NCBI GenBank assembly: GCA_022652945.1
Contig: JALCRV010000004.1
Location: 62,001-126,000 of the forward strand
Direction: 5' to 3'
From: Bacilli bacterium
Lineage (GTDB): Bacteria > Bacillota_I > Bacilli_A > RFN20 > CAG-288
DNA length: 64,000 nucleotides
Both the position numbers and the translations under genes were made by a program. The stretch's first letter is position 1. Each line of letters begins with the position of its first letter. Under the pieces are notes generated by a model. It did not search any database. It saw only the letters and a list, made by a program, of their open reading frames with translations, and had not been told where the DNA came from. Below are positions 10,816 through 64,000 of the stretch, one piece after another.

Positions 10816-12086
10816 ATAATGTATTCTTTGCTTAGAGATTCATCATCCAAAAGGAATTCACATAAGCCTAAGACAAGATAGCCTTCCGGAGTGAAATGAG
10901 TTAAAGGCTTATTTCTCTGGATAAAAATCTTTCTGGCACCATCTTTGATTTGGCTGAAAGGATACTTTTCTTTCTTTTCCTTAGAAGGATTATCAATCAT
11001 ATAAGCTGACTGGATATAGATAGTTACCGCCCCTTTATGACAGACGAAATCCACTTCATGTTCATTATTTGTTTTCAAGCCCTCTCGGACTGAGCCAACA
11101 TCGACATTGTATCCTCTTATTCTCAGTTCTAAGTAAATCAGATTTTCCATCAGATGAGTTTCTTCTATCTGTCTAAAGCCCAATTTAGCATTCCTGAGGC
11201 CAAGATCCTCAGCGTAATATTTTTCTAAACCCCTTAAGTAATTTCTGCCTTTTACATCATAACGATCAGCCTTTTCAAACAAAAAGGCATCCGTCAGATA
11301 AGTGAAGTAGTTTTGAATCGTATCATCTGTAATCTTCACCCCGGAAGAATTAAGGACATTTTCTAACTTAGTTGAAGATGAATAGGCTCCTATATTGCTA
11401 TAAAGGGCATCGATAAGTTTATCTAAGGTTCGAGTCTTCCTGATTTTATAGCGATCATGAATATCGCATAGATAGACGGTCTCATGGAGTTTTCGCAAAT
11501 AATTGGTTTTAGTTAAATCATCCGGTAACTGGAAAAGAAATGGCATTCCGCCAAAAACCAGATAGCGATTTAAAGCTTCTTCTTTATCTCCACCATAAGC
11601 GGAATAGAATTCTTGAAAACGAAGTGGATAGATTTTAATCTCGTAACCACGATCAGCCAATTCGGTTGCCACATTCTTGCTTAAGAATCGAGAATTGCTG
11701 CCGGTTACATAAACATCGTATCTCTTATCGTCATTAAGTCCGTTTAAAGCATCAGCCATTTTTCTAGGATTAGGTGTCCCGTCTTTCTCTTCATCTATAT
11801 GTTGAGCTTCGTCGATGAAAAGATAATGTCTTTCATTATCGAGCGTTCTTTCTTTAATTGCCTTAAAAAGCAGATTGCTATCCCTTAAGGGCACATTTTG
11901 TTTATCTTCAAGATCAATAGCAATTATATGGTCCATTTTCACCCCATGCTCATTAAGCCAAGAACCATAAAGTTGGTTCAGCAAAGTGCTCTTCCCGCAT
12001 CTTCTGATGCCGGTAATGACTTTGATAGGTGAAGTATCCTTCATCGCGATGATTTGCTTCAAAAAATAAGGTCTTTCAATGGTCAT
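10812..12086 (-). CDS. Orphan AAA_14/DUF4143-type ATPase A
   Basis: P-loop protein of 424 residues if started at the ATG at 12086; an upstream ATG at 12122 is open but lies inside the inverted repeat and the promoter. MTIERPYFLKQI is a normal start for this family. Walker A is GIRRCGKST, Walker B HYLFIDEAQ, and YVTGSNSRFLS is sensor-like. The C-terminal half matches DUF4143, with an EVDFVCHKG strand followed by YIQSAY, where nuclease-like relatives have E-x-K. The -10 hexamer TATAAT (12098-12093) lies 6 nt before 12086, predicting a leaderless mRNA. Function of these widespread single-gene ATPases is not established. Confidence 0.85.
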   Translation of the reverse strand: MTIERPYFLKQIIAMKDTSPIKVITGIRRCGKSTLLNQLYGSWLNEHGVKMDHIIAIDLEDKQNVPLRDSNLLFKAIKERTLDNERHYLFIDEAQHIDEEKDGTPNPRKMADALNGLNDDKRYDVYVTGSNSRFLSKNVATELADRGYEIKIYPLRFQEFYSAYGGDKEEALNRYLVFGGMPFLFQLPDDLTKTNYLRKLHETVYLCDIHDRYKIRKTRTLDKLIDALYSNIGAYSSSTKLENVLNSSGVKITDDTIQNYFTYLTDAFLFEKADRYDVKGRNYLRGLEKYYAEDLGLRNAKLGFRQIEETHLMENLIYLELRIRGYNVDVGSVREGLKTNNEHEVDFVCHKGAVTIYIQSAYMIDNPSKEKKEKYPFSQIKDGARKIFIQRNKPLTHFTPEGYLVLGLCEFLLDDESLSKEYII

Positions 12087-15922: not shown

Positions 15923-17626
15923 ATGAAACGTAAACAATTCTTATTGCCTTTAGCCTTCTTAACCGTTTTTGTCTTAAACGCTTGCGGCAATAACACTCAG
16001 ATTGCTCAAGAAAGCCATGACTATCCTTTTTACGTAAACTCACCAGATAACAAAAAGACAATTAATCTCACTTTCTTCAAAGGCCAAAAAGACATCCCTT
16101 ATATCTCTTTAGAGACTCTTAAAGACCTCCTTGAATCAACGATGGCTGATTCAGGGGAAAAAGGCTTCGCTTTATCTAGAACTGACTCGGGACAGAAAGT
16201 AACCTTCACTCGGGAAAACAAAGCCAGCGCCTCGTTCGACTTTCTAAACGATAATATTACTTTTTCTAACTATGATCTTTTCAACGCTTTGCCCTGCTCA
16301 AAAACAGCTTTGGACATCGACTCCTCTGATGACCTGGACGCTAATAATCAAAACATCTATCTCCAGCGTCAGAATGACAAGGGCTTTTACCGTCCAGGCG
16401 CAGAAATGGTCTTAGACTTAAAAGATTACGATCTCTCCATTTACTACCAAGGCGGGAAAGGTTATGTACCTCTTGCCCTAGCCTCCGATTTCTTCTTTGC
16501 TACCTATATGCCGACTCTAAGTTTCAACGGAGAGTCCGCTTTCCTCTTCCCCGGCTCGATGAAAGAATTCTCTGATATCTATTATCAAGTATCTCCAAAA
16601 GCAGTAAGCGCAGAGCTCTCCGCTTTCTCCTATCACGAGCTTTGTCTTACTCTCGACCACCTATACGGATTAAAAAAGCAACATGGCATCAACAATTTTG
16701 ATACCGTCTTCAGCCAGAACGGATTCAAAACTGATTTCTTAGGGACCGATCCTATAAAACAGGATATCGCTTATGAGAAATTAGCTTATGCCGTCTTAGC
16801 TGACTTCCACTCTAACTTCGTCGCTAACTCCCCTTTCGCCGGCAAAGAATCCACCCCTTCCAAGCAAGAAGGAATTACAACTTATGGAAGCCCGTCTTAC
16901 TTAAATAAATTCGCTGCTTTTACTAAAGTCGGCATGGCTCAAGCTACCGCCTTCCCGCAAGGCTGCCCGAGCTATCAAGTTATCGGCGATACCGCTTATG
17001 TGACCTTTAATTCCTTTGTTGGGCTAAGTCAAGACTATTACCTTACTGCCCCGAATGAAGAGGCCGCAGATACCTTTGGCATCTGCGCTTATGCCCATAA
17101 GCAAATCACCAACAACAGTTCGATTAAAAACGTCGTTCTCGATCTCTCCGCCAACACCGGCGGAGAAAGCCGAGCTGCCTTATTTACCTTAGCTTGGTTT
17201 TTAGGGGAGGCTAGCGTCAGCATTCAATCCGCCGCGACAGGAGGGGTCGCTACCACCGTCTACCGCGCAGATCTTAACCTCGACCACGTCTTCGATGAGA
17301 AAGATACTTTAGAAGACAAGAATCTGTTTTGTCTTATCTCCCCGATGAGTTTCTCCAGCGGGAACTTAGTTCCTTCCTTCTTTAAAAATTCCGGCAAAGT
17401 GACTTTATTAGGTCAAAACTCCGGCGGTGGAGCTTGTAACATCCAATCGCTCGTGACCGGAACCGGGACTTATCTCACCATCTCTTCTCAAAGAGTGCTT
17501 TCCAGAGTCTTCAATGGTTCTTATTACGATATCGATCAAGGTGTCGCCCCGGATTATCCTATCGTTAATCTTAATAACTTCTACGATCGTACTTGGCTTA
17601 CAAATATGATCGATTCTATCAAGTAA
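15923..17626 (+). CDS. Lipoprotein with C-terminal S41-type peptidase domain
   Basis: The 567-residue precursor has a lipobox LNAC with Cys21, so it is anchored on the outer membrane face. The C-terminal 250 residues resemble the tail-specific/C-terminal processing protease core: VVLDLSANTGGES, then SPMSFSSGN with a candidate nucleophile Ser, then GQNSGGGA and GVAPDYPI. The usual PDZ region is not obvious; residues 40-220 contain two beta-rich segments resembling the N-terminal region of S41 lipoproteins. Its promoter has TATAAT about 45 nt upstream and an AAGGAG site. Substrate is unknown. Confidence 0.75.
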   Translation: MKRKQFLLPLAFLTVFVLNACGNNTQIAQESHDYPFYVNSPDNKKTINLTFFKGQKDIPYISLETLKDLLESTMADSGEKGFALSRTDSGQKVTFTRENKASASFDFLNDNITFSNYDLFNALPCSKTALDIDSSDDLDANNQNIYLQRQNDKGFYRPGAEMVLDLKDYDLSIYYQGGKGYVPLALASDFFFATYMPTLSFNGESAFLFPGSMKEFSDIYYQVSPKAVSAELSAFSYHELCLTLDHLYGLKKQHGINNFDTVFSQNGFKTDFLGTDPIKQDIAYEKLAYAVLADFHSNFVANSPFAGKESTPSKQEGITTYGSPSYLNKFAAFTKVGMAQATAFPQGCPSYQVIGDTAYVTFNSFVGLSQDYYLTAPNEEAADTFGICAYAHKQITNNSSIKNVVLDLSANTGGESRAALFTLAWFLGEASVSIQSAATGGVATTVYRADLNLDHVFDEKDTLEDKNLFCLISPMSFSSGNLVPSFFKNSGKVTLLGQNSGGGACNIQSLVTGTGTYLTISSQRVLSRVFNGSYYDIDQGVAPDYPIVNLNNFYDRTWLTNMIDSIK

Positions 17627-17646
17627 AAAAAGATTAAAAGAAAAAT

Positions 17647-17705
17647 GATGTGTACCCTCTTAAAGACACTTAGCAGTGTCCAGAATTAAGGGTACACATC
17701 TTTTT
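17647..17705. terminator. Strong bidirectional terminator
   Basis: Perfect 12-bp outer stem (17647-17658 with 17689-17700), an inner GACACT/AGTGTC hairpin (17664-17679), and TTTTT after it. It separates the convergent S41 lipoprotein and antiporter genes. Confidence 0.9.
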
Positions 17706-17730
17706 ATAAACGATTTTTTAACTTGCTTAA

Positions 17731-19158
17731 TTATTTAGTCGGAGGAGTAGGAGGCAACTTCTTTTCAGGCTTGATTTCCTTAATTATCTCAACTTTATTC
17801 GGCCCCATCCCATCGATCTGGCCGGCTTTAATTAAGGCAATCTTGGTTACTAAGGCTCCCGCTAATTCATAAATCATCATCGTCGAAAGCACGACGCAGA
17901 CGATGATATCCCCGTAAGAATACCCATCTTTAAAAGGCATCGTAAAAGTCCTGGCGCTCGCCGTCGCTAAGCCGATTGCTACACCGGCTTGAGGCAGTAA
18001 CATAAAGCCTAAGTATTTACGGATATTCGGATCGCAGTTCTTCTCGGAGAAAGAACCGACATAAGCCCCGAGATACTTCCCTCCGGAACGAAGAACCAGA
18101 TAAAGAGCCGCTAAGGGCAAGAAAAGACCTAACAAAGCCGGATCACGATAATAAATCGAAAGATCAAGTTCCGCTCCGGAGATCACAAAGAACATCAGGA
18201 ACAACCCCGGAGTCAAGTGATCGATATTCCCTAAGACCTTCTCTAGCCCTTCCGCTTTATTGCAGTAGACCGCTCCGACCATCATCGCACAAAGAAGCGG
18301 CTGCAGTTGGAACTCATGAAGCGGATTCCCCTCTGGGAAGATCGTAAAGGAAGAAAGAGCACCGATCGCTAAAAGGAAAGCAGAGATCCAAATCGAACGA
18401 TTATCCCGACTCTTAAAGAACTTACCGATAAAGACCAAGAAAAAGCCAATGCCGATCCCTAAACCTAAGGAAATGAAAATCTCCATCAGCGGAATCACTA
18501 AAAGCGTATAGACATCGACCGTCCCGCCTGAGAGCGCCTTACCTAAGGAGAACAAAACGGAATAAAGAAGCAAGGCAATCGCATCATCCAAAGCGACGAC
18601 TGGAAGTAAAGTGTCCACCACTTTACCGTGGGCGTGATATTGTCTGATGACTAAGACCGTGGCGGCGGGAGCGGTAGCGGATGCGATAGCGCTCAGGGTT
18701 AAGATAATCCCCCACGGGAAAGCTTCCGGATCGATAAAGTGAGCGATCATACAACCTAAAAAGACCAATAAAGAAGCCCCTAAGGCTTCGGTAAAGGTCG
18801 TAACTAAGATTCTCTTGCCGGCTCTTTGTAAGGCGGTCTTATTAAAGGACTGACCGATGGTGAAAGCGATGAAGGACAGGGCGATACCGGAGATCCAAGA
18901 AATATCCATGACATTAATAGCCGGATTAGCGTTTGTTAAGGGGCTGCCAAAAAGGGTATGGAGACCTAAGATATCTTTCCCTCCGTTAATCCCATCCACA
19001 ATCGCTCCTAAACAATACGGACCGAAAAGGATCCCGACTAACAGATAACCGGTGACATTAGGAAAGTGGATAAGTTTCATCAGACGCGAAGAAAGAAGAC
19101 CTAAAATCAAAAAGACCATGATATAAAGCAAGGTAAAAGCGATGGAAGATGAAAACAT
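17731..19158 (-). CDS. Monovalent cation/proton antiporter (CPA2/Kef-like)
   Basis: A 475-residue protein with about 12 membrane segments and the CPA signature near the N-terminus (FPNVTGYLLVGILFGP, about 33-48). A later SAIASATAPAATVLVIR segment carries the core unwound helix, followed by VVALDDAIALLLYS with the ion-binding Asp pair. It exchanges Na+ or K+ for protons across the inner membrane. The C-terminus lacks a Rossmann (TrkA-N) domain. The small gene at 19174-19506 lies 15 bp upstream and probably supplies a regulatory subunit. Confidence 0.87.
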   Translation of the reverse strand: MFSSSIAFTLLYIMVFLILGLLSSRLMKLIHFPNVTGYLLVGILFGPYCLGAIVDGINGGKDILGLHTLFGSPLTNANPAINVMDISWISGIALSFIAFTIGQSFNKTALQRAGKRILVTTFTEALGASLLVFLGCMIAHFIDPEAFPWGIILTLSAIASATAPAATVLVIRQYHAHGKVVDTLLPVVALDDAIALLLYSVLFSLGKALSGGTVDVYTLLVIPLMEIFISLGLGIGIGFFLVFIGKFFKSRDNRSIWISAFLLAIGALSSFTIFPEGNPLHEFQLQPLLCAMMVGAVYCNKAEGLEKVLGNIDHLTPGLFLMFFVISGAELDLSIYYRDPALLGLFLPLAALYLVLRSGGKYLGAYVGSFSEKNCDPNIRKYLGFMLLPQAGVAIGLATASARTFTMPFKDGYSYGDIIVCVVLSTMMIYELAGALVTKIALIKAGQIDGMGPNKVEIIKEIKPEKKLPPTPPTK

Positions 19159-19173
19159 GTTCTGCTGCCTCTT

Positions 19174-19506
19174 TTAGAACGAGCCTTTAAAGAAAGTCAC
19201 AGGCCAAGCGAAAACAGCCCCTCTGATTTTCTTAAAGTCGCCCGTAAAGTCTTCGATTATCTTCGAGACAATCGGAAAGTCCTCTTCGTTGATAATCGAG
19301 AAGAAAGTCGGATTCTCCCTGACCTGGCCTCGTAAGGCATTGGTAAGAGAAAGGACGCTCGGTTCCTCTTCCCCGATTGAATTTACCAAGGTATTGAAGC
19401 TAGAAGCAGCAAGAAAGGTTCCGTTGTAGCCTTTAGCGTGCAACTGGTGCAAGAGTTCATCGATGCTACAGCCGGCTTCAAAGACGGCAAAGATAATTTG
19501 CTTCAT
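19174..19506 (-). CDS. Small PII-like protein, putative antiporter regulator
   Basis: I start it at the ATG at 19506, which has an AAAGGAG site 8 nt upstream; a longer frame to 19560 lacks one. The 110-residue product alternates strands and helices (MKQIIFAVFEAG, KGYNGTFLAASSFNTLV, TFFSIINEED) as in PII or cyclic-di-AMP receptor-like ferredoxin folds, but no diagnostic nucleotide-binding loop can be assigned. It shares a transcript with the antiporter, so a gating or nucleotide-sensing role is an inference from context. Confidence 0.6.
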   Translation of the reverse strand: MKQIIFAVFEAGCSIDELLHQLHAKGYNGTFLAASSFNTLVNSIGEEEPSVLSLTNALRGQVRENPTFFSIINEEDFPIVSKIIEDFTGDFKKIRGAVFAWPVTFFKGSF

Positions 19507-19673
19507 TAAAGTACTCCTTTCGCAGGAAAAACTATTAGCCGACTGCCTTTTTTTAGACAATAAGGTTCAGACCGATGTTCTCCTGAAGAAAAATTTACTA
19601 TGCGCCATCATTAAAGCACGAGGAAAGCCGGTATTCAAGTGAACACAAAGAATCAAAGTTGATCGGACTATCA

Positions 19674-19712
19674 CAAAAAAAGAAAGCGGCCTCCGCATTC
19701 AACTCGAGCCGC
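19674..19712 (-). terminator. Probable terminator of the TetR-kinase gene
   Basis: On the minus strand GCGGC and GCCGC form a short stem around a 17-nt loop and are followed by TTTCTTTTTTT. The stem is only 5 bp, so this is moderate evidence. It lies about 80 bp after the kinase stop. Confidence 0.5.
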
Positions 19713-19789
19713 GTGGGGAAAGAGGATAATATCGGACTTCTGAAGGTAAAGCCTCTTTAAAAATTCAACAATCTCGAAAGTACAGATGT

Positions 19790-22729
19790 CTATTTCTTCT
19801 GAATGGCGTTAGCTAAGGTAGCGTAGAAAGTAGTTGGATCGATTGGCTTGGATACGTGAGCGCTCATGCCGCAATTCAAAGATCGTCTGACATCATCCTC
19901 AAAAGCATCTGCGCTCATCGCGATAATCGGAACTCTCTTCGCGTCGCTTCGCTCAAGATTTCGAATCGCTTTTGTGGCTTCGAAGCCATCGCAAACCGGC
20001 ATGCGTAAATCCATCAAGATTGCATCGAAAGAAAATGGAGGCTGTTTTTGGAAAGCCTCAATGCCTTCCTTGCCATTATCAGCCGTAATCACGTTGATTC
20101 CCACCGAGTGTAAGAGGGTGATGGCAATTTCTTGATTGATGGCATTATCCTCGCAAAGTAATACTCTTTTACCACGAAGAAGGGTGGAATAATCCACACT
20201 CTTATCTTGATAAATTGCGGATTGATCCATCACTTTGAGAGGCAGATCGACACGGATGCAAGTGCCGGCTCCTAGAGATGAATTAACGCTGATCCGTCCA
20301 CCCATCAGCGTGACGATGCGCTTCACGATATTTAGACCCAGTCCGGTCCCGGAGGTCCCTTTGGCTTCCAGACGATTTTCTTGGGTAAAGGGCTCAAACA
20401 TCTGCTTCTGGAACTCTGCGCTCATACCGATGCCGTTGTCTTCGACTACCAAACGCCGAGTAAAAGGGGCTTCGCGGTTGTCCAGCTTTTCAAAGACCCA
20501 GCGGACTTGGCCACCGGAAGGCGTGTATTTAATTGCGTTGGAGACAAGGTTCAAAATGATTCTTTGGGTTTTAAGCTTATCAATCCAATAAATTTCCTTT
20601 AGGCCCATCGCCCCATCGCTCAGCAAACGGATGTGCTTTTGCTCAGCCATCGGTTTGATCACCGCTTCGACCCCTTCGAAAAGCTCTTGGGAAGTCACGG
20701 CCGCAGGTTGCAGGACATACTTGCCACTTTCAATCCGCGAAAGCTCCAAGGTGTCATTGACAATCGAAAGCAAGAGCTCGCTGGAGCACTTGATCTTTTC
20801 AAGATAATCTTGTTTTTTCACCGGGTCCTTTTCCTGGATGGCGAAATTGCAAAAGCCGATTACGCCATTGAGCGGGGTGCGGATATCGTGGCTCATCGAG
20901 GAAAGGAAAGCTGACTTGGCCTCATTGGCTTTCTCAGCTTCAAGGCGGGCTTTTTCGATGTTAATAATCTGATTTTTCTCCTGTCTGACCGCCGAGGTGA
21001 CATCGCTGCAAATGAGCAAGACATCGCTACTTTGTTTGGATAAATAGAAGAAATCCCATTCGCGGCTAACTTTTTTCTTGTCATAAAATCTGGAAAAGGT
21101 CTTTTGGTATTTCCCGGTTTTTTCCAAATGCTCCATCACGACGGGGAGGGCGAGATTTCGACCAAAGTTTTGTCGCTCATCTTCGGAGAGAACACTCGCC
21201 CGAACCTTGGTGAGGAAACTGACATAAGGTTCCTTAGTCCGTGGGGGGAAAAGAGCGAGGTTACTGCGCAGGATTTCGAATTCGCCGGTTGAATTATGCA
21301 GGATGCCAATGTATTCGAATTGCGATTCGACAACGCGAGCCAAAATCAGATCGTTGTTTCTCTTATCCGTGATGTCATAGGTATAAACCGAGCATTCGAT
21401 TTTGTGGTTATCAGGATTTTCGTAAGCGTTGACCTGGTAGGAAACCCATTGGGGGTTAGTTTGAGGGAGGCAACGTTGATATTCGTAACGGAAACTCCTC
21501 TCCCCCTGTTCAACCAGCTTGGTAATGCGTTCACGCCTAAATATTTTTTTGATATCTTCTTTATCGCTTGGAGAGACGGCGCTGTCAGCCATCATGTCAA
21601 TGCATTGGTCATATGTCATGCCTGAAATAAAAGGCATCGCGCCTTGATGAATGGTTCGGAAACTGATCAAGCGATTGTCGCTTATATTAGAGCGGCTGAT
21701 GGCAATCAGTTCTGGGGTAATGCTAAAATCGCTAATCGTAAAATCCGCGCGCTCATTTTTCTCGCGTTGAGCCTCTTGAGTGACGTCCAGCAAAAGGCCA
21801 AGCGCTTTTTCCGGATGCCCATTAGCGAATGAAACCACATGATAACTTATGCGGAAAAGACGCGGTCCCGAAGGATTGGTGGTCCAAATCTCGGCCGTGG
21901 CATTTATCCCGTCATTGACTTTGCCATAAAGGTCGAGCAACATCGCTTGATCTTCAAGAAGACAAGGCTTCAATAACGAGTCCGGGACGTTTGAAATAAC
22001 CCCATTCGGAGGCCAGCCAAGAGAGGCGAGATCGTAGGCGGCATAATCGCGGGGATCATAGGTTATCTGGCGATGAACAATATCGTATTCCCAAGCAAAG
22101 AAACCAACGCTCTTGCTAGCCTTTTTCAAGAGTTCGCCATTTGGACGGTTTTGATAAATGCCCTCGGGTGAAAACTCCTCGTAATTTTGAAGTAGTTTCT
22201 CAGTGATAATCGCCATGCTTTCGGGAGACTCACGGTAGGAAGAAGCTATCCATTTTTTTGACAGACTGTCCAGAGTCGAGGCCAAGAAAGATGGAAGGTA
22301 ATCGCGTTGGAAGTCATTCAAGAGCGCTGAGCGTTCCTTGGGCAAGAAACCATCGAAATTCTCGCTGATAACCTCTTCGAACAGATAACCAAGGTTATTG
22401 GCAAAAAAGAGTTCATAAAGAGGATGTTGTTGAACGAAGGTGTAGAAATAAATCATCTGCCCTCGCCCCAATTCGATGGTCTGATATGTTTTGAGAAATT
22501 CTTGATGAAGTTGAAATAGAAGGGTTTTGGCTAACGCCGCCAAACTGGAATAAGAACGATAGAAGGTAGGACGTGAAACAGACGCTTTTTGGCAGAGGTC
22601 AAAAATCGAAATCGCGGTGAAAGGCTTTTTCGAAAGAAGCTGCAAAAAAGCCTCTTCGATCTGACGTCTAGACTGTTCAGCTGCCAAAGGATTGGCAAGG
22701 TGCTTGTTTGCTCGCTGGATGGTAGACAT
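19790..22729 (-). CDS. TetR-type HTH fused to PAS sensors, histidine kinase and receiver
   Basis: A 979-residue soluble protein with unusual order. Residues about 20-70 are a TetR-family HTH (FTAISIFDLCQKASVSR, then PTFYRSYSS), followed by a TetR-like helical region to about 190. Two or three PAS-like segments follow. Then come the kinase H-box SMSHDIRTPLNGV near 610, ATPase motifs NLVSNAIKYTPSGG, DNGIGMS and GTGLGLNIVKR, and a receiver with ILMDLRMPVCDG and the SKPID Lys (about 850-979). No membrane segments. Promoter: TTGTAA, 17 bp, TATAAT, ending 7 nt before the ATG with no ribosome site. Codon use looks richer in TTG and CGN than in neighbours, hinting at transfer. It resembles the partial kinase at 61767. 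Confidence 0.88.
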   Translation of the reverse strand: MSTIQRANKHLANPLAAEQSRRQIEEAFLQLLSKKPFTAISIFDLCQKASVSRPTFYRSYSSLAALAKTLLFQLHQEFLKTYQTIELGRGQMIYFYTFVQQHPLYELFFANNLGYLFEEVISENFDGFLPKERSALLNDFQRDYLPSFLASTLDSLSKKWIASSYRESPESMAIITEKLLQNYEEFSPEGIYQNRPNGELLKKASKSVGFFAWEYDIVHRQITYDPRDYAAYDLASLGWPPNGVISNVPDSLLKPCLLEDQAMLLDLYGKVNDGINATAEIWTTNPSGPRLFRISYHVVSFANGHPEKALGLLLDVTQEAQREKNERADFTISDFSITPELIAISRSNISDNRLISFRTIHQGAMPFISGMTYDQCIDMMADSAVSPSDKEDIKKIFRRERITKLVEQGERSFRYEYQRCLPQTNPQWVSYQVNAYENPDNHKIECSVYTYDITDKRNNDLILARVVESQFEYIGILHNSTGEFEILRSNLALFPPRTKEPYVSFLTKVRASVLSEDERQNFGRNLALPVVMEHLEKTGKYQKTFSRFYDKKKVSREWDFFYLSKQSSDVLLICSDVTSAVRQEKNQIINIEKARLEAEKANEAKSAFLSSMSHDIRTPLNGVIGFCNFAIQEKDPVKKQDYLEKIKCSSELLLSIVNDTLELSRIESGKYVLQPAAVTSQELFEGVEAVIKPMAEQKHIRLLSDGAMGLKEIYWIDKLKTQRIILNLVSNAIKYTPSGGQVRWVFEKLDNREAPFTRRLVVEDNGIGMSAEFQKQMFEPFTQENRLEAKGTSGTGLGLNIVKRIVTLMGGRISVNSSLGAGTCIRVDLPLKVMDQSAIYQDKSVDYSTLLRGKRVLLCEDNAINQEIAITLLHSVGINVITADNGKEGIEAFQKQPPFSFDAILMDLRMPVCDGFEATKAIRNLERSDAKRVPIIAMSADAFEDDVRRSLNCGMSAHVSKPIDPTTFYATLANAIQKK

Positions 22730-22736
22730 GGATAGT

Positions 22737-22765
22737 ATTATAGCAAATAGGCAGTGACTTTACAA
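22737..22765 (-). promoter_or_regulatory. Near-consensus promoter giving a leaderless TetR-kinase mRNA
   Basis: TTGTAA (22765-22760), 17-bp spacer, TATAAT (22742-22737). The -10 ends 7 nt before the ATG, so the transcript should start at or beside the start codon. Confidence 0.7.
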
Positions 22766-22994
22766 ATGTAACACCGCATTAAAAAAAACAGTGATGAAAA
22801 GCGAAACCTCCTCATCAAGGAGCTAAGGCCTATCCTGCTGGAAAGAGAAAGCAAAAATTATCCAGCTGATGAACGCCTAATTAGGTAAATCTTTATTTCG
22901 TATATAAAAGCAAAACTCCACCTGGGGATTTTTCCTCGATTAGTTTTACTCGGTTTTTCTCGAAATATCGTTTAAAGCACTCAATAAAAGTTGA

Positions 22995-24002
22995 TTACTT
23001 TATCAAAGAATTCTTGCAGTGACCACTGGAAAGATATTCATCCATATTCTGAAGTGAGACTTCAACCATATCCTTTAAAGCCCCATCGGTAGCACTTCCG
23101 ACATGCGGAGTGATAAGGACTTTAGGATACAAAGCCAGCATTCTTTCCACCAAAGGATCTTTTAAGTCTTTGACCGAGGCGAAGGCGTGGTTAAAGATAC
23201 CCTTCTCATTAGGAATCACATCCAGGCCTAAGCCAGCTAGATGCCCATCCTCAACCGCCTTAACCGCCGCTTCGTTATCTAGTAATTCCCCGCGGGCGCA
23301 ATTAATGAGAATCGCATCTTTTTTCACCAAAGCAATCTTTTGCTCATCGACAAATTTATCGGTCTTTCCAGGCATATAGTTCATGTGAACGGAAATCAAA
23401 TCACTTTCTTTAAACAAAGTCTCGAGATCGACATATTCCACCACATCGCGGCATTTATCATTCGGATAAAGATCATAAGCGATAACTTTTGCTCCTAAGC
23501 CTTTAAAAAGCTTGCCGGTCGTATAACCGATTCTCCCGCAGCCTAAGATTCCGACCGTGCATTCACGGATTTCTCGGCTGAACATCTGATCATCGACTTT
23601 AAAATTCCCTGAAGCGGTCTTCATAGTAGCATAGGCGGCATTACGTAAAAGCATCATGCCTAAAGTCAAAGCCAATTCGCTGATAGCGTTAGGCGAATAG
23701 CCGGGAACAAAGGCTGTCTGGATTCCCAGTTCCTTACAGGCCGCTACATCGACATGGTTATATCCGGCGGTCCTAGTTAAATAATAACGTAACCCTCCTT
23801 TAGCCAAAAGTACCATCTTATCATGGGTAACTACACAGTTTCCCCTGACCATCACAATTGGGTAGCCTAAAGCATCCTGGTAATTCTCATCGTTCAAATA
23901 CTGACTTTTTAAGATCAGCTCATAACCATACTTCTGCCCTAAGCTATTAAAGGTCTCCTTTTCATAATCGCGGACACCGAAACAAATGATTTTCTTTTCC
24001 AT
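22995..24002 (-). CDS. D-isomer-specific 2-hydroxyacid dehydrogenase (D-lactate dehydrogenase-like)
   Basis: I use the ATG at 24002 (AAAGGAAA upstream); a longer frame to 24050 overlaps the transporter end. The 335-residue product has the Rossmann motif GILGCGRIGYTTG near 150, the Arg region NCARGELLD, and the catalytic-His region PHVGSATD near 297-304. It should interconvert pyruvate-type 2-oxoacids and D-2-hydroxyacids with NADH in the cytoplasm. It is co-transcribed with the AEC transporter 19 bp upstream, fitting fermentative lactate or a related acid. Confidence 0.9.
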   Translation of the reverse strand: MEKKIICFGVRDYEKETFNSLGQKYGYELILKSQYLNDENYQDALGYPIVMVRGNCVVTHDKMVLLAKGGLRYYLTRTAGYNHVDVAACKELGIQTAFVPGYSPNAISELALTLGMMLLRNAAYATMKTASGNFKVDDQMFSREIRECTVGILGCGRIGYTTGKLFKGLGAKVIAYDLYPNDKCRDVVEYVDLETLFKESDLISVHMNYMPGKTDKFVDEQKIALVKKDAILINCARGELLDNEAAVKAVEDGHLAGLGLDVIPNEKGIFNHAFASVKDLKDPLVERMLALYPKVLITPHVGSATDGALKDMVEVSLQNMDEYLSSGHCKNSLIK

Positions 24003-24021
24003 ATCTATATATTTCCTTTCT

Positions 24022-25176
24022 CTAGGCCGGGAAGAAACCCGAAGCCGCAATCACCGTCAGAATCAAAACCCAGAAGACGATACCGGGAATCGCGACAAAA
24101 GTCGAAACCAAGGAGATATCGCTGGCCATGACCTTCTCTTTTTCAAAATTGATGCAGTAAGCCACCGCCACTGTCGCCGGCGGGACCATCCACATCATAA
24201 CCGAGCTTTCAACGGTATAAACCGAAATCAAAGCCGGATATCCACAGGCGGTGGCAATCGCTTCAACTCCGTAAAGCAAAGCTAAGACAAAGGCCGGAGC
24301 TAAGAAGACTTTTAAGCCGCTATAGATCCAGGCGAACTTATCTAAGGCTGCTTCCTTAAAGGAAACACCGCCTAAGGTGCAGCCGATTGCTAACCAGACC
24401 AAAGGAGAAGATAGCCCACCTAAGACAGCAGCGGTCTGATGAATCCAAGGTAAGGAAACATCAAAGCGCCAGAACGGAACATATTTAATCTCTGCCCCGG
24501 TAGCGACTGGAGCTAACCAATCGGTTCTTAAAGTCCACCAGTTCTGCTCATAAGAACCAGGGATGGCCTGCAGCACCCATAAAATCAAACCGGCGAAAGT
24601 CGCGATGATAATAGGATTGAGGAAGATCTTTTTCATCGTGGCCTTAAAGGAAGTCTCCGGTGTCTGACCAATCTTCGTACCGGAGACCGCCAGATAAGCA
24701 TAAGAATAAAGGAAGACACGGTAAGCGACATTTAACATATTCGAATCGTTATAGGCTTGCTTACCGAAGATGGCGCTGATCAGCGGCTGAGCAAAGAAGG
24801 TCGTGCTGCCGAAGGCGAAAAGAACCGATAGAACTAAGCGCTTAGTCGGATCTTTAATCCAGAGGAAGATGGCCCTACCTAAGAAGATAAAGATGATATA
24901 GATGACAAAGCCAAAAATGAAGTTAACCAGCGCATCGACCCCACCGGAAGTGGTGAAAGTTACCATAAACGAAGTAAAGGCTAGACAAGGCAAGGCGACG
25001 TTCATGACGACTTTAGTTAAAGTCTTCCCCGTCCCTTGAGGGAAAATCTTTAATTTAGTTAAAAAGAAGCCTAAAAGAATGATGATGATTGTCTTAGCGA
25101 TCGCCGTCCAGAGACTGGTGGACGACATCGCCTTAGCGATATTGTCGGAGATAGAGACCGCAGCAAAGATATCCAT
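24022..25176 (-). CDS. Auxin efflux carrier (AEC) family organic-acid transporter
   Basis: A 384-residue membrane protein with about ten hydrophobic segments in two halves and the AEC-type N-terminal pattern (GKTLTKVVMNVALPCLAF). Family members such as MleP carry malate, lactate or other 2-hydroxyacids. The adjoining D-2-hydroxyacid dehydrogenase supports a hydroxyacid substrate. Start ATG at 25176 with a GGAGGA site. Confidence 0.85.
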   Translation of the reverse strand: MDIFAAVSISDNIAKAMSSTSLWTAIAKTIIIILLGFFLTKLKIFPQGTGKTLTKVVMNVALPCLAFTSFMVTFTTSGGVDALVNFIFGFVIYIIFIFLGRAIFLWIKDPTKRLVLSVLFAFGSTTFFAQPLISAIFGKQAYNDSNMLNVAYRVFLYSYAYLAVSGTKIGQTPETSFKATMKKIFLNPIIIATFAGLILWVLQAIPGSYEQNWWTLRTDWLAPVATGAEIKYVPFWRFDVSLPWIHQTAAVLGGLSSPLVWLAIGCTLGGVSFKEAALDKFAWIYSGLKVFLAPAFVLALLYGVEAIATACGYPALISVYTVESSVMMWMVPPATVAVAYCINFEKEKVMASDISLVSTFVAIPGIVFWVLILTVIAASGFFPA

Positions 25177-25543
25177 TAATGAAATCCTCCTACCTACTTA
25201 TTACGATAATACGAACAAAAAAGGCCTGCTATTCATTTTTTATCTGGCCCGGTCGAATTATCGAATTAGCGATTTTAAATATTTGTTTATTTTAACTAAC
25301 ATTAATTCCCGGATTCTTTGGTATTTTTGTTAAACCTCAAATCAGTTTCTTATTATCCGTTCTTTTTCTGTATCAGGTATCGAAAGACTATTTTGAAGAC
25401 TGCAAGAATCAGACTCTTTAAGGGCTTAATTGTTACCAAAAGGAAAAAGCTGTTCGATCATTAGGCTTTTAGTCAGCTTAAAAAGACGCTAAATATCATG
25501 TTCAAATAAGATTTTAAAATTCAATAGCGTTTTAAATAAATAC
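25177..25543. other. Intergenic stretch, no gene
   Basis: Holds the 5' region of the AEC transporter and the 3' side of AlbA_2 gene C. The only repeat seen is an 8-bp tandem TCGAATTA at 25253-25268. No terminator with a T-run was recognised. Confidence 0.5.
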
Positions 25544-26971
25544 CTATTTGGAAAAGAATTTTTGAAGCGGACTTTGTGGCTTTTGGGGAATACTCATTAA
25601 TAATTTCCCTTCTTTAACAAGGGGGTCTACAAATTTTCTCATGGCATAATTAACTCCAACGCCTAGGAATGCAGCTAACTCATTCCTTGTTTTGGGCTTT
25701 TGGCAAAAAGCGATGATACTTTCCGGGTCAGAGTGGCCTTTTTCTTTTAGATAATCAAGATTTTTAAAAATTGCAGCGAATTGGCCTCGTCTTACTTCAA
25801 AAACTGGACGAGGCAAAGAAAAATCTTCTAAGGCTTTCTTTATGGTTGGGATTCCGGAAAAACGGTTCTCTGACTCGCCAAGATATTCCATCGCCGTCAC
25901 CAAGGCAGGATTTCTAGTCTCCGGAGTAATTTCTCCAAGTTGCGAGGGATCAATATCGCCAAGAATACCACCAGGATTTTTTATTTCAATTCGATCATCA
26001 TACATTTCTACTACAACGGGGATACTTTCGCTATATCGACTGTAATCACGGTGCTCAACAGCATTAAGAAGCGCTTCACGAATGGCTATAGGAGGATACT
26101 CATAACGATCAGCTCTTCTGCCATCTTCACCAATAATGGTGTAATGCTTTAAATTTGCCAAGATAAAATCATAGGCCTGGCTAATCATTTCACCAGCGGC
26201 GCCTTTAAATGATCTGTTTGCCGTAAATCTCGCCCCATTGTCAGCCAAGGAGCCCATTTCTTTGCCGGGGATTCTAACAACATTAATGGAAAGCCTCGGA
26301 AAATAGGCATCTGGAAAATGAGAAAGGGTTATTAAGCCTGCGAGAGTTGGCTTGTCTTCCTTTGATAATCCCAGAAGTTCTAAAGACTGTGCATCGGAAA
26401 TGGACTGTAGATTGGGACGGTTTTTCCGAGCATTATCAAGTAATTTTCCCTGTAAAGCGGGATCGTAGTCTATAAAAGCAGCTTCTTTGATGACACGAAG
26501 GTCCTCACGGACACGATTGTGCCAAGCATCATAAGAATAGATTTCAAATTCAGTCATTTTTTCATCGGCTTCACCAACCCGAACATAGGAACCTCCAAGC
26601 CTTCCGGCGGGGCGATAATAGCAAGGCCGCTTGGCATAAAAGCAAGCGGGAATCTCAGCTGATACGACAAAAACGCCAGGTTTAAATTCCAATTCTGTAA
26701 AAACAGCCCGGACAGGTGGTTCCATTTCAGAACATTGAGACTGGATTCGTTTTTCAAGATCAGCGACATTATAGACACCATTGACATTAAAGCCATTTTC
26801 TTCATCAATGCCGAAAAGAATCGTGCCTCCTTCATCTTGATTGGAAAAAGAAGAAAGAGTGTCCCGGCACTTCGGGCAACCTCCATCGGCCTTTTTCAGC
26901 TCGATGGCTTGAGATTCAAATTTCCGATCAATGACCTCATTAACCAAAGCGCTTAGTTCTTCAATTTCCAT
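25544..26971 (-). CDS. AlbA_2 (Schlafen-like) domain regulator C with GHKL ATPase-like domain
   Basis: The 475-residue protein begins with an AlbA_2 domain: SQAIELKKADGG, then CRDTLSSFSNQDEGGTILFGIDEE, then YVRVGEADE. A GHKL ATPase-like segment (IREALLNAVEHRDYS, EIKNPGGI) lies near 290-340, and a winged-helix-like C-terminus (RNELAAFLGVGVNYAMRKFVDPL) near 435-460. This is the architecture of COG2865-type predicted transcriptional regulators. It stands alone between unrelated genes, with a GGGGA ribosome site and the 21-bp phased repeat array upstream. Autoregulation through that array is my inference. Confidence 0.85.
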   Translation of the reverse strand: MEIEELSALVNEVIDRKFESQAIELKKADGGCPKCRDTLSSFSNQDEGGTILFGIDEENGFNVNGVYNVADLEKRIQSQCSEMEPPVRAVFTELEFKPGVFVVSAEIPACFYAKRPCYYRPAGRLGGSYVRVGEADEKMTEFEIYSYDAWHNRVREDLRVIKEAAFIDYDPALQGKLLDNARKNRPNLQSISDAQSLELLGLSKEDKPTLAGLITLSHFPDAYFPRLSINVVRIPGKEMGSLADNGARFTANRSFKGAAGEMISQAYDFILANLKHYTIIGEDGRRADRYEYPPIAIREALLNAVEHRDYSRYSESIPVVVEMYDDRIEIKNPGGILGDIDPSQLGEITPETRNPALVTAMEYLGESENRFSGIPTIKKALEDFSLPRPVFEVRRGQFAAIFKNLDYLKEKGHSDPESIIAFCQKPKTRNELAAFLGVGVNYAMRKFVDPLVKEGKLLMSIPQKPQSPLQKFFSK

Positions 26972-61197: not shown

Positions 61198-61770
61198 CTA
61201 TCCGTTCTTTTTAGCCATCTTAATCCCCGAATGGTATTTAACGTACAGAGGCATTTTTTCTTTGATGATTTTTAACATCTCTTCCGGGCTGGAGCAGGAG
61301 AAAATCCTATCATCGAAACCTTCGTAGCGGGTATGTTCATCTAGTTTAATCCCCGCGACTTTGCTAGCCCAGCCGCCGCAATTCTTAAAAGCGACAATCG
61401 GGCGATATAAAGCCCAGGCCGCACAGATTTCCGATAAAGTACCAGCTCCACCCCCGATCGCAACCACGAAATCGCAATCGGTGACAATTCCCGAGCGCAT
61501 GATATCTAACCCGGTCGGGATCACGATATCCGCTAAACCATCCTGATCGTTTTTATCGAAAGAAGGCAGGATGGCGATCGTATCGCCTTCCTGATAAGTC
61601 GAAGCGCTTCTAGCTCCTTTATAGACTTCTTCCATCACCCCGCCCATCCCGCCAGCCTGAATCCGATAACCGGCTTCATCCAGGGCCTTACCTACCTGAA
61701 AAGCAATCTTTTCTTCTAGGCTTCCTTTTACTAAAGAGCGATCTCCGATAACTGCGATTATTTTTTTCAT
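61198..61770 (-). CDS. LOG/TIGR00725-family protein
   Basis: 190 residues of the SMF/DprA-LOG Rossmann family. It has the GGMGGVMEEVYKGA segment near 40-53 and the PGGxGTxxE-type motif here as IGGGAGTLSEICAAW near 106-120, with Gly for Pro at the front. Relatives are nucleoside 5'-monophosphate phosphoribohydrolases. It overlaps the hybrid kinase stop by 4 bp (ATGA), so it is translated with it. Confidence 0.82.
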   Translation of the reverse strand: MKKIIAVIGDRSLVKGSLEEKIAFQVGKALDEAGYRIQAGGMGGVMEEVYKGARSASTYQEGDTIAILPSFDKNDQDGLADIVIPTGLDIMRSGIVTDCDFVVAIGGGAGTLSEICAAWALYRPIVAFKNCGGWASKVAGIKLDEHTRYEGFDDRIFSCSSPEEMLKIIKEKMPLYVKYHSGIKMAKKNG

Positions 61771-64000
61771 TTTCCTTCTTCTTTCTTGAATAAAAGATTA
61801 TTTAAAGTCTCATAGAGCAACTCAGGTTCGATCGGCTTAGCTAGATGCGCATTCATCCCCGCGGTTTTCGATTCCTCTTTTTCTTCATCGTAAGCGTTAG
61901 CGGTTAAAGCGACAATCGGCAGACTCTTAGCATCCGGCCGCTCCAGATTTCTTATATGTCTTGTCGCCTCTAAGCCATCCATGACTGGCATTCTGATATC
62001 CATCAAAACCGCATCGAAGAAGAAAGGAGGATTCTTCTTAATAATATCCAAGCCTTCCTGTCCATCTTCCGCTAAGGTGACAATCGCCCCGGCTTCTTCG
62101 AGGATATAACGGATAATCTCCTGATTCAAAGGATGATCCTCGCAGACAAGGATCTTCTTATTCTTCAAGAAGGCCTTATCCTCAGCTTCCGTCTTCTGCT
62201 TCGCTTCAGACTTTTCAAAATCGGAAGCTAAGACGGTCTTAAACTCGCCGGTAATCGTATAAGAGGTACCCTTGCCGAGTTCAGAATTTACTTGGATTGT
62301 ACAGTTCATCAGATCAAGCATGCTCTTCACGATCGCTAAACCTAAACCCGTCCCGCTTTCCGCTTTCTGACGGTATTCTTTTCTCTCTTCCTGGCTAAAA
62401 GGCTTAAATAGGTGTTTCTGAATGAATTCTTCTGACATCCCGATGCCCGTATCGGAGACGATCGTCTTCAGATGGATAAGATTATCCTTTACCAGATACT
62501 CATCTAATTCGTAAGTGATCCTCCCGCCTTCCGGTGTAAATTTCACCGCGTTAGAAAGTAAATTAAAGAAGACCTGATTGATTCTTAACTGATCCATCAG
62601 AGGAAAACGATCGGTAACAATGCGTTTAGTCTTTAACTCAAACTTGATATTCTTCTGATCGCAGAGAGGCTTAATGACGGAATTAAGATAATCGACGAAA
62701 ACCTTCGGATCATAAGGAGCCGGATGCAACTCAATCGAGCCCGACTCGACTTTTGCCATATCCAGAATATCGTTAACGAGGCCGAGGAGGAATTTTGAAG
62801 AAGTCGAGATTTTTTCGAGACAGTCATCGGTAGAAGGAGGATTCTTATTTTCCTTAGCGATATATGTCATCCCGATAATTCCGTTCATCGGGGTACGGAT
62901 ATCGTGGCTCATCCGTGAAAGGAAATCAGATTTGGCTTTCGAGGCTTCCTCAGCTTTCTTCACCGCTTCATTCAGTTTCTGAATCTGTTCCTGCTCGCGG
63001 ACGTAGGAGAGAGTGATATCACGCTTGCAGGCCAAAATGAAATTATGCTTTTTACCTAAGTAATAATACTTAATCTCTTTTCTTCTCTGCTCGCCTTTTA
63101 CCATCTGGAAGAAAGAGAAGGTATAAGAATCAGAAGTCTTCAAGGCTTCTTCCGCCGTAGATAAAACAAACTGCTTGGTAAAATCCGCCCGATCTTTTTC
63201 ACAGACGAAATTATCTCTTAAATATGCAGCGTTTTCATCGTAAATAGATGATATATAAGGAACCGCATCATCGTGGCTAGCCTGCTCGATACGTAAGCTG
63301 ACTTGCCCACTTTTAGTATCCACGACCGTGAAGGCATCAAACTCTTTAGAGGTCAGTTTTTCCTCGATCATTCCCTTGATAGCTTTCGAGGTCGTATCGA
63401 CGGAATTGAATGTAGCTTCCACATCGTGGTTATAAGGATTCTCAATCATATTAAAGTAAGCGGTGATAAAACGGACTTTACCATCTTCAAAGCGACGAGA
63501 GTATTCATATTTCAAAGAGAACTTTCCTTCTTTGAACTGAGAGATCAGTCGTTCTCTATTGAAGAAAGCTTGGAATTCCTCATTAGTTTTTTTATCGTCG
63601 ATAATCTGACCTAAGAGATTTAAAAAATCAGAGAAGGTCGAAACCTTTTGATGATTAATCTCCGGGACATTTGAGTCGACATTCTCCAGAATCTGGTCAG
63701 AAGTCAGATCGACGCGGAAAAAGACCAGCGAATCTTCATTTAATTGAAGCATATCGTGCAAGACTTTTTTATAATGGAGTTCGTTTTTCTTCTCTTCATC
63801 GACAAACTGGGTCACTCCGTGTCCCCAGTAAGCCTTACCTTTTTCATCGAAAACCATCTGGCAAAAAACATACTCGTAATGATGCTCTCCTAGATCGTTA
63901 GTAAACCCGACCGTGCAGGAAGCGGAAGGCTTACCGGCATAAAGCTCATCGTACATTTTCTTTAAAACCGGGCGATCTTCTTCATCGACACCAGGCAAAA
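61767..64000 (-). CDS. Hybrid histidine kinase with receiver, N-terminus cut by window edge
   Basis: An open frame of about 744 codons entering from beyond the window. It has PAS-like sensor segments, the H-box RMSHDIRTPMNGIIG, ATPase motifs NLLSNAVKFTPEGG, DTGIGMS and GTGLGLAIVKS, and a C-terminal receiver with VLMDIRMPVMDG and the KPIE Lys. The receiver closely parallels that of the TetR-kinase (IRNLERPDAK versus IRNLERSDAK), so the two kinases are paralogues. Whether it too has a TetR part cannot be seen. No transmembrane segments in the visible region. Confidence 0.88.
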   Translation of the reverse strand, partial: LPGVDEEDRPVLKKMYDELYAGKPSASCTVGFTNDLGEHHYEYVFCQMVFDEKGKAYWGHGVTQFVDEEKKNELHYKKVLHDMLQLNEDSLVFFRVDLTSDQILENVDSNVPEINHQKVSTFSDFLNLLGQIIDDKKTNEEFQAFFNRERLISQFKEGKFSLKYEYSRRFEDGKVRFITAYFNMIENPYNHDVEATFNSVDTTSKAIKGMIEEKLTSKEFDAFTVVDTKSGQVSLRIEQASHDDAVPYISSIYDENAAYLRDNFVCEKDRADFTKQFVLSTAEEALKTSDSYTFSFFQMVKGEQRRKEIKYYYLGKKHNFILACKRDITLSYVREQEQIQKLNEAVKKAEEASKAKSDFLSRMSHDIRTPMNGIIGMTYIAKENKNPPSTDDCLEKISTSSKFLLGLVNDILDMAKVESGSIELHPAPYDPKVFVDYLNSVIKPLCDQKNIKFELKTKRIVTDRFPLMDQLRINQVFFNLLSNAVKFTPEGGRITYELDEYLVKDNLIHLKTIVSDTGIGMSEEFIQKHLFKPFSQEERKEYRQKAESGTGLGLAIVKSMLDLMNCTIQVNSELGKGTSYTITGEFKTVLASDFEKSEAKQKTEAEDKAFLKNKKILVCEDHPLNQEIIRYILEEAGAIVTLAEDGQEGLDIIKKNPPFFFDAVLMDIRMPVMDGLEATRHIRNLERPDAKSLPIVALTANAYDEEKEESKTAGMNAHLAKPIEPELLYETLNNLLFKKEEGK

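Follow-up and report, generated by a model that had tools for sequence, protein, structure and literature searches.

Free-standing TetR regulators, which are one-component systems, and hybrid histidine kinases, which belong to two-component signalling, represent two standard designs of bacterial sensing. A gene located at 19790..22729 on the minus strand of the 64,000-nucleotide stretch analysed here (hereafter the window) seems to bring both designs together in one polypeptide, which raises the questions of whether the joint is genuine, whether each half is complete, and which end of such a protein would be its output. A previous sequence-only reading had described a single 979-residue frame with a TetR helix-turn-helix (HTH), PAS-like sensors, HisKA/HATPase domains and a receiver; ORF reading, Pfam and homology searches bear this description out, its coordinates being exact and the coding strand being the minus one (ATG at 22729, stop ending at 19790).

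The reading frame and its joint

The frame runs over 979 aa without interruption, in the order TetR, three PAS-like modules, HisKA, HATPase_c and receiver, and the plus strand of the same stretch is stop-rich and devoid of any such frame. The presence of TetR_N and HisKA in one protein, a check proposed along with the sequence-only reading, was found by Pfam for both domains in the 979-aa chain, TetR_N remaining below cut-off. The TetR and PAS-like parts meet in a junction linker of 13 residues (22139..22177, minus strand; residues 185-197). When the fusion gene was scanned for internal starts, neither an ATG nor a start codon with a Shine-Dalgarno sequence was found at codons 173-252, so that the kinase would not readily be made alone. 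Codon usage and GC3 are alike across the joint, namely -0.02 and 0.47 in the TetR part and 0.00 and 0.50 in the PAS part, and the codon bias of all parts of the gene lies below the mean of the window's genes. The Pfam scan of the 979-aa protein and the other domain searches reported no membrane domain, and the fusion protein appears soluble.

These features bear on a trivial origin of the gene by assembly or binning, i.e. a chimeric contig in which a TetR gene has been joined in frame to a kinase gene. The source genome is a draft of 20 contigs and the joint occurs in no second genome searched, as would be expected of such an artefact; yet the joint keeps the frame and falls just where the TetR domain stops and a PAS module begins, its two sides agree in codon usage and GC, and two domain borders are unlikely to be joined in frame by chance. 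This explanation is very unlikely. Relatives with the TetR and kinase parts in split genes had been named beforehand as the observation that would speak for it, and no split orthologous pair was found in the genomes searched. All in all, the joint looks real, and the gene looks to unite two complete units, a TetR-type regulator and a soluble sensor kinase that has its receiver.

The N-terminal regulator and the kinase half

The TetR/DhaS-like regulator (22178..22687, minus strand; residues ~15-184) comprises an HTH at residues ~18-67, which carries 'SVSRPTFYRSY' at residues 50-60, and a TetR_C_8 domain at residues ~101-181. In the full-length Pfam scan, both domains are matched at the N-terminus near their cut-offs (TetR_C_8 9e-5, TetR_N 0.002). 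With the first 200 aa scanned alone, TetR_C_8 reaches 26.6 bits, above its curated cut-off of 26.1; TetR_N gives 18.3-21.1 bits for the fused HTH, its cut-off of 24 not being reached even with this shorter query (21.1). Of the 21 sequences in the TetR alignment, TetR_N detects just 14 at E<=0.01, so that its sub-threshold score is a property of the subfamily. The sequence-only reading's identification of the N-terminus as a TetR is upheld by homology, as residues ~13-186 match free-standing TetRs from other genomes of the order and class (E down to 5e-15, 24-31% identity), phmmer against the PDB retrieves the TetR structures 3o60 (8e-7) and 3kkc (3e-6), and a family profile that combines the fused domain with 20 free-standing relatives picks out in the PDB 4mk6, a dihydroxyacetone kinase regulator (3e-30), and DhaS 2iu5 (1.5e-20).

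In leave-one-out profiles, the fused TetR was ranked among 21 sequences, 20 of them free-standing TetRs. The whole domain scores 121 bits (rank 10), its C-terminal TetR_C_8 domain 48.3 bits (rank 11) and the HTH alone 64.9 bits (rank 14), the latter inside the range of the free-standing members; such mid-rank scores leave the TetR part without sign of decay. AlphaFold2 returned a pLDDT of 42 for the TetR part alone, modelled without homologous sequences, and a helical TetR region with pLDDT 34-57 per block in the full-length model, and a search of viral contigs for TetR loci that would deepen the structure alignment yielded none. With its fold resting on homology, the N-terminus is predicted to be a complete, undecayed TetR regulator of the DhaS/TetR_C_8 type. 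As in the regulators of this type (PF14278; DhaS 2iu5, 4mk6, Lin0861 3o60), both the HTH and the C-terminal domain are matched over the whole length, but the members found here are free-standing, whereas the TetR of the 979-aa protein is fused to a kinase; in the phylum sample, none of the open frames holding the TetR_C_8 matches listed is longer than 265 aa. By analogy with these homologues, the fused TetR head would bind DNA as a dimer.

Beyond the linker come three divergent PAS-like sensory modules (21002..22138, minus strand; residues ~198-576), also present in other soluble hybrid kinases of the genome. This segment stays below the Pfam thresholds (PAS_4 E 0.25); it can be aligned with soluble hybrid kinases elsewhere in this genome that do carry PAS domains, and the AlphaFold2 model displays three helix-plus-sheet modules in it with moderate confidence. 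Next are the kinase core (20234..20920, minus strand; residues 604-832), in which Pfam places HisKA at 604-669 and HATPase_c at 717-832, and the receiver (19820..20164, minus strand; residues 856-970; Response_reg 76.6 bits), all of them far above cut-off (HATPase_c 1.4e-26, Response_reg 2.2e-21, HisKA 8.2e-18). The kinase motifs are intact, namely the phospho-acceptor H614 in the H-box, the N-box, DNGIGM and GTGLGL, as are the receiver residues, namely the acidic pair E860-D861, the phospho-acceptor D907, the S of MSADA and the K of SKP, and the hybrid kinase ShkA and HK853 rank among the top PDB matches in Foldseek. Judged by its motifs, the kinase half is a catalytically complete hybrid histidine kinase with receiver, and homology predicts kinase activity for the fusion protein.

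Origin, distribution and expression of the gene

The closest paralogue, a kinase of 1338 aa encoded on contig 11, is 38% identical to the fusion along the entire PAS-HK-REC tail. The soluble PAS hybrid kinases of the same genome, of which this is one, have in common with the fusion a tail of PAS-like modules, HisKA, HATPase_c and receiver; at the N-terminus, they carry more PAS domains where the 979-aa fusion has its TetR. The other hybrid kinases scanned likewise bear PAS domains N-terminally (one, in a relative, also GAF) and none of them a TetR, and the receiver of the fusion resembles that of the TetR-less paralogues. The simplest reading would be a module swap, by which a TetR came to stand in place of the outer PAS domains at the sensor end. 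The family of soluble PAS hybrid kinases is amplified in this genome. At 61770-64000 on the minus strand, the window holds a second one, a 1183-aa open frame running into the window edge and paralogous to the fusion's kinase half.

Fused relatives were sought with residues 1-585 in the own genome, in 78 relatives, and in 279 genomes of the order, 395 of the class and 392 of the phylum, these samples overlapping; no second TetR-kinase fusion was found in the relatives or in the order, class and phylum samples. Apart from the window itself, the matches listed cover the TetR part or the PAS part, never both. Those to the TetR part are free-standing (open frames up to 453 aa among the 78 relatives), and the kinase match starting earliest among those listed, at residue 152, begins with a PAS domain and has GAF further in. 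In scans of genome contigs, which reach near relatives only, exact-peptide patterns from residues 1-578 returned 0 relatives, and the PAS-HK tail of the closest pair returned just 4 distant kinase loci and no fusion; plasmids (residues 1-600) and viral contigs (residues 1-578) contained no fused relative either. The sequence-only reading had called this kind of fusion unfamiliar, in line with which the literature searched describes no TetR-kinase fusion; PMC3018481 was discarded as a match, the text hit being 'tetrad'. The fusion is a singleton as far as searched, i.e. a rare arrangement seen in one draft genome.

Such a distribution would suit a recent neutral or non-functional fusion in one lineage, with its halves uncoupled or the gene on its way out: no orthologue turned up in the order, class and phylum samples or the near-relative contig scans, and codon bias under the window-gene average in all parts goes in the same direction. 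Against this stand 979 codons without stop or frameshift, the intact catalytic residues and HTH, and a consensus promoter, and a fusion of this kind is regarded as improbable.

The promoter lies at 22737..22765 on the minus strand and consists of TTGTAA and TATAAT separated by 17 nt, with 10/12 consensus matches and an extended -10. As the -10 ends 7 nt upstream of the ATG, the fusion mRNA is probably leaderless; no Shine-Dalgarno precedes the start, while many genes in this genome do have one. TATAAT also occurs just ahead of the ATGs at 12086 and 58975. Overlapping the -35, a perfect palindrome, TTACATTTGTAA (22760..22771, no strand assigned), is a candidate autoregulatory operator for the TetR head. 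An equally good palindrome occurs in 219 of 500 shuffled versions of the promoter stretch, and the genome holds three exact copies, of which the promoter copy alone lies outside a gene; the palindrome hints only faintly at autoregulation. A terminator-like hairpin (22792..22817, minus strand) separates the upstream dehydrogenase gene from the fusion promoter, and with its own promoter and this hairpin upstream the fusion gene is probably transcribed alone, i.e. monocistronic. Rfam gave no match in 17000-26000.

All genes across 17731-25176 are on the same strand as the fusion. Upstream, a D-2-hydroxyacid dehydrogenase (VanH/D-lactate dehydrogenase-like) and an AEC-type transporter are encoded at 22995-25176 (minus strand); downstream are a 113-aa protein without domain match and then a Na+/H+ antiporter gene. 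The transporter-dehydrogenase pair was considered as a regulatory target, which is not evident, the pair being kept in six relatives without the TetR-kinase, at 50-71% identity. In three of these six, a LysR-looking gene stands beside the pair, and the window has no such gene. As for the 113-aa protein (19174-19515, minus strand), which has no Pfam or NCBIfam match and is encoded directly upstream of the antiporter gene (17731-19158), a role as a small antiporter regulator is conceivable.

Possible working and known counterparts

TetR regulators form homodimers, as do histidine kinases. With both halves normally homodimeric, homology leads one to expect the fusion as a homodimer as well, in which the paired HTHs would be at one end and the receiver at the opposite end, with the TetR dimerisation domain adjoining the PAS/kinase stalk. 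The TetR head would bind an operator, which may lie in the gene's own promoter, and its DNA affinity would shift with the conformation or the phosphorylation of the PAS/kinase dimer, transmitted along the dimer axis that both halves share; at the same time, phosphate would go from the receiver to the free HPt of the genome, as in a classical hybrid kinase. A domain-swap protein with a TetR DNA-binding output coupled to the state of its PAS/kinase part is the reading tentatively favoured here, with a little less than an even chance of being right, and the coupling of the two ends, as well as its direction, is a guess. The intact HTH, the gene's own promoter and, weakly, the palindrome over the -35 are the grounds for favouring it; the complete domains and catalytic residues, the undecayed TetR, the lack of an internal start and the uniform codon usage also speak for it. 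Conversely, no orthologue was found in the genomes searched, so that no conservation points to selection; the TetR occupies the N-terminus, which is the kinase's input end, and the receiver is like those of the paralogues that lack a TetR. Known DNA-binding hybrid systems have the DNA-binding domain behind the receiver.

The TetR could instead serve as input, its ligand pocket or its DNA occupancy acting as sensor in place of the outer PAS domains, with an output that the kinase and its receiver would relay to the free HPt and on to a response regulator, and DNA binding being secondary or a tether. The location of the TetR at the N-terminal sensory end, where the paralogues carry PAS domains, and the standard receiver fit this alternative, as does a genome with one free HPt and DNA-binding response regulators. 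The HTH, however, is as well preserved as in free-standing TetRs, and pure sensing would not need it in the long term, even though a recent fusion would show an equally intact HTH; a TetR working as input is possible but doubtful.

The sequence-only reading had gone further in proposing a complete phosphorelay in a self-contained sensor-regulator, which is not supported in this form: Pfam finds no Hpt match in the protein, and the genome's sole HPt match (contig 1:133856-134047) is free-standing, within another open frame of 124 codons. A self-contained phosphorelay, i.e. HK-REC-HPt in one chain, was rejected on this ground. The genome has 23 receiver matches, many in hybrid kinases, and this suggests that the single HPt is a shared phosphorelay hub; it also encodes several DNA-binding response regulators. 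Given the free-standing HPt and these regulators, transfer of phosphoryl groups to other proteins is no less plausible than control of the TetR in cis. That phosphorylation from H614 to D907 directly gates DNA binding by the TetR in cis, without a separate response regulator, is possible but less likely than not; if true, the protein would amount to a soluble hybrid two-component system with another DNA-binding family and a reversed domain order.

Returning to the favoured DNA-binding output, the fusion of complete versions of both designs suggests that a kinase can have its sensor end occupied by a DNA-binding regulator. The protein would offer a test case for the gating of a one-component regulator in cis by kinase conformation, or the reverse, and, though known from just a single draft genome, a natural template for phospho-controlled TetR switches.

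Hybrid two-component systems (HTCS) of the Bacteroides type carry a C-terminal AraC-type HTH behind the receiver. Like the fusion, they hold kinase, receiver and DNA-binding domain in one chain; in Bacteroides, they are membrane sensors with the DNA-binding domain tied to the receiver, and an interaction between both suppresses DNA binding without phosphorylation (PMC11253607). In contrast, the fusion appears soluble and its DNA-binding domain is TetR-type and at the other end, ahead of the sensors; Pfam matches no AraC HTH in the protein, whose chain ends at the receiver. The fusion was thus rejected as a Bacteroides-type HTCS, both domain order and DNA-binding family being different. The HTH-PAS one-component regulator FG214, in which the PAS state controls HTH release, has HTH and PAS in one chain as the fusion does, and is presented, in the part of the source drawn on here, without kinase or receiver, which is a different combination (PMC13060918). 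The principle of coupling has precedents elsewhere, in HTCS (PMC11253607) and, within that part of its source, in FG214 (PMC13060918). A hybrid kinase tied to a DNA-binding domain is a known idea; its TetR version is a new combination.
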